Both the position numbers and the translations under genes were made by a program. From Gigantopelta aegis (Eukaryota; Mollusca; Gastropoda; Neomphalida; Peltospiridae), in NCBI RefSeq assembly GCF_016097555.1, contig NC_054706.1, forward strand, positions 52,425,590-52,489,589: a stretch of 64,000 nucleotides of DNA. Direction: 5' to 3'. The notes beneath the pieces are model-generated. The model was not told the DNA's origin and searched no databases. It saw nothing but the letters and a program-made list of their open reading frames with translations. Shown piece after piece: positions 33,301-39,300 of the stretch. The first letter of the stretch is position 1; every line of letters starts with the position of its first letter.

Positions 33301-36300
33301 TTCTCTTGTTTTTATAAAACAAAATGTTTTTCCTTCAGTTTAGTAGCCCAATAAAATCTGCTTAATTACCTGGGCCATGTTTAAGAAAAACTCTGCTAAT
33401 AACCAGTCTACCCAATTTTCCGTTTCAGTCCTGTGCAGGAATATAATATGCAATTTTTTTTATTGTTCTATAAATTAGTACATGTATGTGATTTAGTTGA
33501 TTCAATTGCACAACTAATTTGTTCGTGTTGTAGTATTGGATTTATTCACTGGTATGTGAAAGGCTGTAAAGATTCCTTGATGGTAATGGGAAAAAATATA
33601 GAAGGTGTTCTCAGACTATGTGTCAAAATTATCAAATGTTTGATATTCAATAGCTGATGATTAATAAATCAAGGTGCTCTAGTGGCGTCATTAAAAAAAG
33701 ACTTTAACATTATAAAATGTTATTTCCATTTTTCAGGCGGACCGGTCGAGCAGGCCGGAAGGGTTATGCCTATACGTTTGTGATGCCTGAACAGGAGAGA
33801 TATGCTGGTGAAATTCTCCGAGCTCTCGAGCTGTCTAGTTCATCAGTTCCTCCCGAACTTTCTACCATGTGGAATGCATATAAAGAGAGGGCAAAAGCTG
33901 TAAGTTGTTTCTATATGCTGCAAAATCTGTAAGGGTATTGTTTACATACTGCAAAAATATTTCTTTTCAACTTAACCTGACCTACCTATCAAAATTCGCA
34001 ACCCCAAAACCCCCACCCAAAACCATTCTGGAAGATTCTAGGCAGTCGGATGTTAAGATATTCGGACCAGTCCAATTTAATAGGGGGAAATTTCCATAGG
34101 GTAGAGGTCAGACTAAGTGTTCAATAAATGAATTTTTTTAATTTAAGTTTGATCCATTATTTTTATTCCATGTTTATATATATATTTTTTATGTCCATTA
34201 CTGCAACCTAATGTCTTATTTTCATAGATAATGATATGTAGTGGAGGTTAAGAGGAATATCATTATCAAAACTGGTTTCAGATAAACGTTAGGTGCTGAA
34301 TATTAATATTGGAACAAATAAACATATTTTTAAGCACAACAAATGTTTTTGTTTTGTTTTTATTTCGGCACATATGTTATATTAAAATGTTGTCATCATT
34401 TAACAAAGAGCTTTCCATTATATTATGTGCACAGAAACATTTTTGACTTTGTTTAGTTACGTTTTGCTTACAGGAAGGTAAAACTATCAGGAGCTCCAGT
34501 GGGTTTAAAGGCAAGGGCTTCAAGTTTGACGAGACCGAGGCCCACCTGGCTAACGAGCGTAAGAAGTTACAGAAAGCTGCTCTTGGTATTGCCGACTCGG
34601 ATGACGAAGATGCTGGAATGGATGTAAGTACAAGATGTTTCTTCAGAATAAGCTGGCCTGCTAAAGGGTGTGCCAGAAATGATCACCTGTGGATAGGTCG
34701 AGGAGATTGTATTTTGTTTCCATTTTACAGCATTTAAACTACTGTTGAAGTTGAATTGGTAGTTATATTTTTCAACACACTTTTTACATATAACTAATTT
34801 TAGCATGTAATGAGCTAGTATTTTTTCTAATTATTTTGCTAAATGTTTTCAAATAAAAAGAGTCGAATTGCTAACTATAGTTTTTGTTCTTTTGAAACAC
34901 TTAATTCCCATCATCCAGAGAAAGTTAACTAAAAGTCCTGGTATTTGGGATATTTATAAAATCAATCTTTCATCGTATCGTCCCTTTCAAGCACCACTTA
35001 TTTTGGATTTGATTTGATTAACGTCCCTATATCCAATTACGGTTCAAGCACGTCTCTCCCGGGCACAATCTCCGACTTTGCCAGTGACTGGGTCCGGGAC
35101 AGAAGGGGGGTAGAGTTGGAAATGGGCAGTATTTTGAAAATGGCAATTAGTAAAAAAATTAATCGAATTTTAAAAAATAAAATAAAGTTAACAAGCGAAA
35201 TAAAAATAATTGACAGCTCGGCCGCATATTTATATAATTTGTCTGAATGAAAGAGTATGAGACTAGGGTATAGTCCAGTCGTCATGGTTGGTATAGTGGT
35301 GCGGATGCGCCCGGTTCCGGAGGATACAAGATGGTATCAATATAAAACAAAGTAAAGTCTAGAAAAGATTAGTAGGGGCCGACCCCACTTCCTATTTCTT
35401 CTTAGAGTGGGGAGGTCAATCTTCCAGTGCTGCTAGGACAGGTCAGACATGTAGAGACTAAACGCGAACAACTGTGGTGTTCTGCAGAATGGATGCGTAT
35501 GGAAAAACAAGTTGACATAAGTCAGCCGAAAAAATTATGTGGAGGTAAGGAATCTCGCTAAAAGAGAATCCAACCTGGTATTGCAGGCTGTCGAAATGAG
35601 TAGTGTTCCAGGATTCAATCAGTTCCAGTGGCTGCATATATCCAAGTAAAAAAACTCCATTTTGGTGACAAAAACAAAACAAAATGTAGGATTCCCAAGT
35701 CAAGCACACGAAAGCACGTGCAGTGTGCACTAGTGAAACAAACATGTCTTACTGTGTCAAGCTCCAGATTGGGACTGACTTATTTTGGATAAATTTATCA
35801 AACTAATCGCCTCGGTCACTGTATTGACACTTTCAGATTGACTAGAAGATCGAGGACATGTTTGTGAGAAATTTATGAAACTAATAAATTTCACTCACTA
35901 TATTGTCCCTTTCAGATTGACCGAAAGATTAAAGACATGTATGCGAGTCGTAATATTCATAAAATCAATCTTTCACTGTCTCGTCACTTTCAAGCACCAC
36001 TTATTTCGGATAAATTTATAAAACTAATTACCTTACTCACTGTACTGTCCCTTTCAGATTGACCAGAAGATCGAGGACATGTTTGCAATAAACATATAAA
36101 ACTAATCACCTACTCAATGTACTGTCACTTTCAGATTGACCAGAAGATCGAGGACATGTTTGCAATAAACATATAAAACTAATCACCTACTCAATGTACT
36201 GTCCCTTTCAGATTGACCAGAAGATCGAGGACATTTTTGCAATCATCTTCATAAAACAAGGCTAATATTCGTTCCTCGTATTCAGCCTTGATACATGTCG

Positions 36301-39300
36301 TCAAGAAATCATGCCACAAAATGCTTAAATTTCATTGGATGCGATGAGATCTGATTGCAACGAATCGCAACACTCCTTATAGATTCCCTTGTTATTGTAA
36401 ACAAAGATGGCAGCGTCAGCATCCGTGGAAACGTGTAGTGTTTATCACGATATGTTAAAAAAAAGGTTTCAGCGGTTAATTTTTGATATAGGTCTCACTA
36501 CACAGATGCCATCTGCCATTGAAACCCATGTTAAACTGCCCAACTTCAAGCGAAGATTGCCCATAGAACGGGTTCTTGTTGTCACTAACAACATACACCA
36601 TTGCGAACATACATTATATAAGCATTTATTTTCACTCCAAAATTGAGAACATTTCCGTCTCAGTTTTTTGCTATATGACTGCATCTGGCTGTAGTACCGG
36701 TCCGAACAGGTGGTTCATTAACCGATTCACTCCGGCTGTCACTTGCGCTATATACCCATGTCCCAAAAGGTCGATGCACAATATTACAAAATAACATGGG
36801 CAAAATACAGCCAGAAGGCTTACCATTAAACATACATATTGTTTTAATTCTTCACCATTTCCTAGAAGTGAATATGTGAACCATAACATGTGTCACAATT
36901 ATGAACTATAGTGGACCGTGATCAATCAACTCTCACCCGGAAGTGATCTGTGTAGTGAGACCATTGCTTTCAAGATTGTCACATGTTACCGATGCTGTGA
37001 TTGGTCAGCGATGTCATCGTGTAAGGGACATAATCGGTGTTACAAATTTTCTTCCAATAGAGGGCGCTAGTAGTGGATATCAGTAATCTTGACTACATGT
37101 ATCAATGCTGAATACGAGGAACGAATATTAGCCTTGATTTATGAAGATGGTTTGCAATAAACATATAAAACTAATCACCTACTCAATGTACTGTCCCTTT
37201 CAGATTGACTAGAAGATTGAGGACATGTTTGCAATAAATTTATAAAACTAATCACCTACTCACTGTACTGTCCCTTTCAGATTGACCAGAAGATCGAGGA
37301 CATGTTTGCGAGTCGTAAGTACGTAACGGACGTGGCGAAACCGATCGTGAACCAGCAGACGCAGCAGGCGCAGAGTAACCAGATCAAGCTGGAGCTGGCC
37401 AAGAAGCTGGCGGCGAGGATCAACATGCAGCGCAACCTGGGACCCGACGCCCAGGACATCACGCAGCAGGCAGCCGTCGCCATCCTCAAGGGAGACTCAG
37501 TGGCTGCTCCACAAGTAGCGGTAAGTTGTTGGGGTTTTTAAGATGGATTTTCAGCTATTAAGTTAAAAGTTATCCTCAGGGAGACTGTGGCTGCTCCACA
37601 AGTAGCAGTAAGTTAGCTGTGGTTTTTAAGATGGAATTTCAGCTATTAAGTTAAAGTTTGTTTTGTTTAATGATGCCACTAAAGCACAATGATTAATTAA
37701 TCATCAGCTGTTGGATATCAAACATATATGTCTGTGGGATGGTGCATATAAAAGATCCCTTGCTACTACTGGAAAAAATGTAGCAGGTTTCCTCTCTAAG
37801 ACTACATGTCAAAATTACCAAATGTTTGACATCCAATAGTCGATGATTAATAAATCAATGTGCTCTAGTGGTGTCATTAAACAAAATTAACTTTTTAACT
37901 GGTGGTGACATTAAACAAAACAAATGTTTTTGATGCTACAGTTAAATGGTCACTGTTGGTGGTCCTAAAGATGAAATAGGAAGAATAAATCATTACTAGA
38001 TAGTGGCTGCTCCTGGACAATACACCTGAGAATAATTCACGACAGAAAACTGTCATGATCTTGTAAAAAGAATCTTTACAAAAAGAGTTGTGCAGAAATG
38101 CAAGTTAAATGTATTAATGATTTTGTTGTTTAGGGGCCGTCCATAATTTTCAACATTTTCACGAGCGTACAAACCGTAAGCAGGGGGGGTGGGGGTGGTT
38201 ATGGGGCCAACGTACACTTTTTGAAAATGAAAAATGTCAATCAACATTTTTCATTTGGGGATGTACACTTTTGGGGGGTGGGGTGGGGTGGGAGGGGGTG
38301 GTCAAAAGTGTACACTTTGTACACTTGTGAAAATGTTGAAAATTATGGACGGCCCCTTAGTGGTTTAGTGTCTATGAATGATTTAACCATTACTTTAAAC
38401 ATTTGATTACAGTCGAAAACAATCGCGGAGCAGATGGCTGAGAAGATCAACGCGAAGCTTGGCTACCGGCCGCAGGTGGAGGAGGAGAAGGAGCAGGAGG
38501 TACCGGCCGACACGTTCAAGCGGTATGAGGAGGAGCTCGACATCAACGACTTCCCACAGACCGCCAGGTGGAAAGTCACATCCAAGGTATTTCGTTTTTT
38601 ACTTTTCATTTCTGCTGGTTAACTTTACAAGGAATTATCAAAACATCTTGTCACTTTTTATGGGTTTTCTTAATATGGATAGCTTTAACAAAAATTTATT
38701 TTTAGATATATTTTCGATAATTTTTTCCATTTTGTTAGCAACATTTACAGGATACTAAAATGTGGATCACAAAGCTAGGTTATGCAGTTAAATCATATTG
38801 TGATTAAATTGTCTAGCAATTGGTGATGCAATACCAAAACTGCACACATGACTGTATTGACACCATATCATTCTTTTCAAGTTTAAATGGCATTCTGTTG
38901 CAATTATGAGTAAACTCTGTGGACAATTAAATATTGTTCCACTGACAAAGCAGGCATTAAAAAAAAAAATATTGTCAACATGTCAGAAACTATCTTGCCA
39001 GTAAAATGTTTTCTACATGGGGAGACATGGATCTAAACTGTAATAAGAGATTGTCACCAGGTAATAGTTATATATTTTACCATTTCTGCACCCCTGTATC
39101 ACTAAGTGGTATTTCCCACCAGTAACAAGCAGAGAATGATAGCAGATAATAGTTATTTATGTGTGAGAAGCAAGTTTCTTCTTTATTCTCTAGACATAGT
39201 TTGCACCTATCTCATGTTAATAGGAGTAATAGCTGCTGATTCATCAGTATGCTGGAATTGTTGCTATACAAATTTCTTCTTTATTCTCTAGACATAGTTT

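Follow-up and report, generated by a model that had tools for sequence, protein, structure and literature searches.

The stretch of DNA analysed here (the window) comprises 64,000 nucleotides (nt) from the peltospirid gastropod Gigantopelta aegis (RefSeq assembly GCF_016097555.1, contig NC_054706.1, positions 52,425,590 to 52,489,589), and its plus strand carries DDX46 (Prp5) between 12.1 and 42.3 kb. Within this gene, the acceptor and first bases of exon 18 have been duplicated repeatedly in the upstream intron, the resulting array is interrupted by two insertions, its units retain intact splice signals, and each of them leads to a premature stop when read in frame from the preceding exon.

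The DDX46 gene and the array before exon 18

Translations of the exons matched human DDX46 among solved structures with an E value of 7.4e-214. The gene model holds 19 internal exons (12126-41477) with GT-AG ends and consistent phase, encoding 986 residues, and places the last exon at 42298; the donor of exon 5, AAT/gttcgt, is weak and less certain. Numbering counts the first coding exon, the position of which was not located, as 1, and by this count the exon that an earlier note on this DNA had called 17 is the 18th; the donor given there for the preceding exon, at 34624, was upheld by the gene model. A search for homologues of the protein gave 1377 matches, of which 120 were listed and 22 selected for alignment. 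Over residues 700-1000, the closest among the matches listed was that of Haliotis cracherodii (84%), with Patella, Solemya and Ylistrum next (77-79%). None of the 120 was near enough to stem from this very species, and the matches point to a gastropod, perhaps one close to the vetigastropods.

Exon 18 (37281-37520) is preceded in intron 17 by head-to-tail units of approximately 77 base pairs (bp), each composed of a branch-point-like motif, a pyrimidine tract, an AG and 29-38 exon bases (Table 1). Repeat searches and self-comparison confirmed the six acceptor copies that the earlier note had placed at 35837, 35916, 36058, 36135, 36212 and 37204, ahead of the real site at 37281, and raised their count to eight upstream units with the addition of two shortened ones in which the AG precedes 34991 and 35995. 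Every long unit has ctaat some 30 bases 5' of its AG and, as its tract, ctgtccctttcag or a closely similar sequence, so that the intact polypyrimidine-AG previously noted in several copies is present in all six; each also keeps 29 exon-like bases (38 with 35916), and the AG is kept in both short units too. The likeness between units is far beyond chance, with 36081-36240 and 37150-37309 being 96% identical over 160 nt (E 5.7e-70). With the insertions removed, the pitches of the nine units, including the real one, are 64, 79, 79, 63, 77, 77, 78 and 77, where the 78 turns into 77 if the repeat flanking the inserted element is counted as 9 bases; a pitch of 77-79 bp, as first proposed, holds for most steps and fails for those of 64 and 63. 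The inner units 36135, 36212 and 37204 are homogeneous, 95-99% identical to one another, and the outer units 34991, 35837, 35916 and 35995 are diverged, with 53-83% identity to other units. The 36058 copy equals the real site across 53 bases, from -24 to +29. The repeat search of the array also returned a spacing of 221 bp.

Two insertions are nested in the array. The larger, a terminal-inverted-repeat element, is flanked by GTTTGCAAT, 9 bp with one mismatch (the change being in the left copy), and together with one unit it accounts for the 992-bp step from 36212 to 37204. Parts of the smaller match 45291-45363 and 55929-55981 by self-comparison.

Table 1. Features of the acceptor array and of other duplicated exon edges in DDX46 (positions in the window)
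Feature	Position	Strand	Remarks
Another array across an acceptor, short units of the type TTTTATTGTAG/ATTGTGATTG	31170..31552	+	Ends in real exon 14 start, 31543
DDX46 exon 17, upstream of array	34474..34623	+	Donor gtaagt at 34624, phase 0; gene model
Degenerate short unit with reduced exon part, AG before 34991	34950..35008	+	90% identical to 35953-36011; insertion separates next unit
Second insertion, 769 bp, cuts the array's first unit	35009..35777	.	13-bp flanking repeat ACTTATTTTGGAT
Unit, acceptor 35837, stop at codon 3	35792..35865	+	
Unit, acceptor 35916, 38 exon-like bases, 48 codons to stop	35871..35953	+	
Degenerate short unit, AG before 35995	35953..36011	+	
Unit, acceptor 36058, identical to real site from -24 to +29	36013..36086	+	
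Unit, acceptor 36135	36090..36163	+	
Unit, acceptor 36212	36167..36240	+	
Terminal-inverted-repeat element, 906 bp, splits one unit	36244..37149	.	Arms ~66 nt, 94% complementary
Unit, acceptor 37204, TAG at codon 3, strong donor 37521 within 330 nt	37159..37232	+	
End of the real intron, with branch-point-like actaatc, pyrimidine tract and AG	37236..37280	+	
Real exon 18, ends APQVA	37281..37520	+	Donor GCG/gtaagt at 37521; gene model
Two tandem copies (period 88) of exon 18's 3' end and donor	37482..37655	+	Second donor GCA/gtaagt at 37608
Single decayed copy of exon 20 acceptor and exon start, AG to GG	41030..41100	+	Real exon starts 41277

Reading frames, donors and variability of the decoys

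When exon 17, which ends in phase 0 at 34623, is joined to any of the eight decoys, the frame closes after 2 to 48 codons. The stop at codon 3 attributed earlier to the 37204 copy was found, a TAG, and it is shared by the 35837 copy; the 36058 and 36135 copies, credited with about 16 codons, stop after 13, and the 35916 copy reads for 48. Since the 36058 copy and the real site are the same over 53 bases, local signals cannot separate them, and whichever of the two is used, the deciding difference lies outside that stretch. Candidates for it are the downstream exon and donor, or the order of transcription.

For each acceptor, the best-scoring donor was sought 25-330 nt downstream. The scores were 5.74 (34991), 4.88 (35837), 3.03 (35916, 35995 and 36058), 3.21 (36135), 5.56 (36212) and 10.3 (37204), the last being that of the real donor 37521, which was itself part of the scoring model; the 19 authentic DDX46 donors, scored in leave-one-out fashion, gave 2.2-9.3 with a median of 6.1. 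The 37204 copy is the only decoy to reach the strong donor at 37521, 317 nt away, and the best donors of the remaining seven (3.0-5.7) fall under the authentic median. GT sites inside the units score 4.9 or less, and these weak sites, together with the closed frames, disfavour cassette or mutually exclusive exons. With acceptors, a position-by-position matrix (approximately 19 sites) was overfitted, and strength was taken from a small model pooled from 20 sites, in which the real acceptor of exon 18 takes 18th place, and that of exon 14 the 20th, among the 20.

In the alignment of the four inner decoys, variable columns numbered 4/33 upstream, 1/12 in the tract-AG and 3/29 in the exon part, and in that of the six long decoys 12/33, 2/12 and 9/29, respectively. 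None of the contrasts tested between these parts reached significance; for tract-AG against upstream columns, P was 1.0 with four decoys and 0.29 with six. Pooling CTAAT with the tract-AG and comparing them with all other columns likewise gave no significant difference with four decoys (1/17 vs 7/57, P 0.67) and, at low power, a P of 0.07 with six (2/17 vs 21/57); widening the motif to ACTAATC gave non-significant values of 1.0 and 0.15.

Duplications at other exon edges and the wider window

Exon 18 has spare splice sites at both edges, the second being provided by the tandem copies of its 3' end, and on translation the use of the donor at 37608 leads to a stop. With exon 14, 16 places in the upstream array match the 23-base boundary at 18 or more positions, 13 of them with an AG and one exactly, and the rest of the gene holds no place matching it to that degree (maximum 15). 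All 16 acceptor-like sites give stops when translated. The real acceptor of exon 14 lies among TAG/ATTG copies, with an AG (site 31526) only 17 nt upstream. A stretch free of AG is usual before a 3' splice site, and given this AG, exon 14 is without one. The intron before exon 20 contains, in addition to the decayed copy, approximately 19 copies of a 98-bp unit (39171-41038) that are 99% alike and include the acceptor-like TTCTTCTTTATTCTCTAG; an origin of this array (19 copies of TTATTCTCTAG) from the exon 20 acceptor was unsupported, its alignment scores being lower than the mean of 300 shuffles.

One of the 22 aligned homologues, the protein of Nucella lapillus, has a 38-residue insert at the exon 13/14 junction, where it repeats the start of exon 14; this is possibly the same kind of boundary duplication, or an annotation fault. 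At the junction before exon 18, no insert of more than two residues occurs in any of the 22, which, as far as aligned proteins go, shows that the exon edge is conserved.

Repeats that cross DDX46 exon edges are the 77-bp units at 37281, the period-88 units at the 37521 donor, and the exon 14 array. Six arrays were counted in the gene, after overlapping rows had been merged and three in-gene rows with scores of 56-65 left out, and the 3/6 that cross an edge compare with 2.5 expected at random (P 0.50), or with 2.1-2.3 when the insertions are excluded from the array length (P 0.34-0.41). These values give no support to the idea that exon edges are enriched in arrays.

Tandem arrays are plentiful in the region as a whole, further minisatellites being found at 49220-49614 (33 bp x 12) and 50763-51939 (53 bp x 22). 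On the minus strand, 58354-60612 holds an open reading frame (ORF) of 752 residues; neither this ORF nor two others located in the insertions had a useful Pfam match, a single hit falling under its cut-off. Rfam returned no match in the window at the gathering threshold.

Origin of the array and its significance for splicing

Minisatellite-like duplications of intron-exon boundaries have been described in amphioxus as 'mirages' (PMC3087553). The mirage of the globin gene BflGb6 consists of intron end and exon start in units of 150-160 bp that are 81-100% alike, six and three units being present in two haplotypes, and reverse-transcription PCR suggested that splicing was undisturbed (PMC3087553). 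The Adh and troponin C mirages are reported to give no aberrant messenger RNAs (mRNAs), and repeats of PGBD5 were added and judged likewise (PMC3902484). The DDX46 arrays resemble the amphioxus examples (Adh3, BflGb6, BflGb9, troponin C and PGBD5) in their tandem units, which join an intron end to an exon start or an exon end to a donor, in the many units that retain AG or GT, in the escape of cluster-edge units from homogenisation, and in unit length, which spans 10-160 bp (PMC3087553, PMC3902484). They differ in belonging to a gastropod mollusc, in the two insertions nested in one array, and in that one gene combines acceptor arrays before two of its exons with a duplicated donor and, at a third exon, a decayed copy. 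The array before exon 18 of gastropod DDX46 is most probably a boundary-spanning minisatellite of this type, tolerated without a selected role.

The identities of the units, coupled with the 221-bp repeat spacing, suggest an order of growth. A segment made of some 48 bases of intron end and 29 of exon start would have been duplicated in tandem, initially as a block of three units spanning about 221 bp (34991/35837/35916, similar to 35995/36058/37281), after which single 77-bp units (36058, 36135, 36212 and 37204) would have expanded and the two insertions would have landed in the array. By exon definition, the spliceosome would ignore most copies in favour of the complete exon at the end of the series, bounded by the strong donor at 37521, and the array would be tolerated because only the 37204 copy has a top-scoring donor within 330 nt. 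This copy may see low-level use, and the resulting mRNA, stopping at codon 3, would be removed by decay.

The earlier note had offered two readings, tolerated repeat expansion and self-limiting control of DDX46. The first is the better supported, given that the splice signals are not significantly more conserved than other columns, that the crossing of exon edges is near random, and that a precedent exists in amphioxus; the duplications at further DDX46 edges also count for it. The second is possible, unproven and without direct support. Some observations do weigh against simple tolerance. CTAAT and TTTCAG are invariant across the six long decoys, and the P of 0.07, obtained from little data, hints at best faintly at constraint on the splice signals. 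The decoy donors scoring 5.56 and 5.74 beat 9 of the 19 authentic ones, so that exon definition could still proceed from those decoys, and the weak real acceptors of exons 18 and 14, a feature noticed post hoc, would ease competition from upstream copies. The homologous proteins of other species are uninformative about decoy use or splicing in this one.

Duplicated 3' splice sites were reportedly employed as test substrates by Reed and Maniatis in 1986. Globin substrates in which the upstream of two duplicated acceptors was followed by 14, 55 or 205 nt of exon were spliced in vitro at the distal site only, and very inefficiently, stalling between U2AF and U2 binding; where a strong 3' splice site had been duplicated, binding of a second U2AF35 took place in the absence of ATP (PMC5389562). 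Such substrates resemble the DDX46 array in having an extra acceptor and a truncated exon piece 5' of a full exon; they are man-made with one extra site, whereas DDX46 has eight natural ones. Their distal-only splicing predicts use of 37281 here, yet the copies may slow the intron, and the inefficiency implies that eight extra sites may not be harmless, a further argument against tolerance.

DDX46 acts at the engagement of U2 with the branch point. It is conceivable, and in our judgement unlikely, that because of the array less of intron 17 is spliced productively, so that DDX46 output responds to splicing capacity. This would come about through either decay of transcripts spliced unproductively at 37204, or the engagement of U2AF and the U2 small nuclear ribonucleoprotein (snRNP) at several sites with consequent intron retention. 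Such control would fit the presence of CTAAT, tract and AG in the six long decoys, the stop in 8/8 decoys, the P of 0.07, and the behaviour of the duplicated substrates, which bound a second U2AF35 and stalled before U2 binding (PMC5389562). A precedent for retention is provided by SF3B1 transcripts, where cryptic splice sites promote it as proposed decoys (PMC6117862). Both cases involve cryptic splice sites in an intron of a U2 snRNP-related gene, but those of SF3B1 are highly conserved and form cryptic exons, whereas the DDX46 acceptors are without good donors of their own and lie in a minisatellite. Control is opposed by the lack of significant signal conservation, by the low scores of in-unit GT sites, which are unlike those of a true decoy exon, by the random frequency of arrays at boundaries, and by the silence reported for amphioxus mirages; papers matching a literature query for DDX46 with 'poison exon' had neither term in title or abstract. 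A more specific proposal, and a decidedly improbable one, is that the eight branch-point/acceptor units constitute a sensor in intron 17, which would hold U2AF and U2 snRNP in unproductive engagement at exactly the step driven by DDX46/Prp5. If true, retention of intron 17 or use of 37204 would tie DDX46 output to U2 snRNP capacity, and with the exon 14 array there would be a two-site control of a core splicing factor, tunable by repeat number.

The birth of an intron or exon, with the repeats as its raw material, has been modelled for the amphioxus globin mirages (PMC3087553) and for human genes in segmental duplications, where internal tandem repeats lie across exon-intron boundaries and can form novel introns (PMC2812944). 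The human repeats are also minisatellites across exon edges, but there transcripts with new introns or altered exons are described (PMC2812944), whereas the DDX46 array is known from genomic sequence; with all its decoy frames closed within 48 codons and only weak GT sites in its units, we regard such a birth here as very improbable. Misplacement of haplotypes or repeats in tandem by the assembly is scarcely credible: an aberrant draft assembly of one amphioxus mirage has been reported (PMC3087553), but the units here differ (53-99% identity) and two distinct insertions with flanking repeats lie among them.

Literature searches on molluscs and gastropods, and on boundary duplications generally, turned up no report of boundary-spanning arrays in molluscs; in an abalone intron, a 27-bp minisatellite differs in copy number between individuals (PMC6905558), an observation in favour of the minisatellite reading, and another gastropod paper deals with intron positions. 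As far as the literature searched shows, the DDX46 array extends boundary-spanning minisatellites, known from amphioxus, to a mollusc. With one decoy sharing 53 bases with the true acceptor, it provides a natural experiment on splice-site choice, and its repeat number could vary between individuals, which would allow graded tests.

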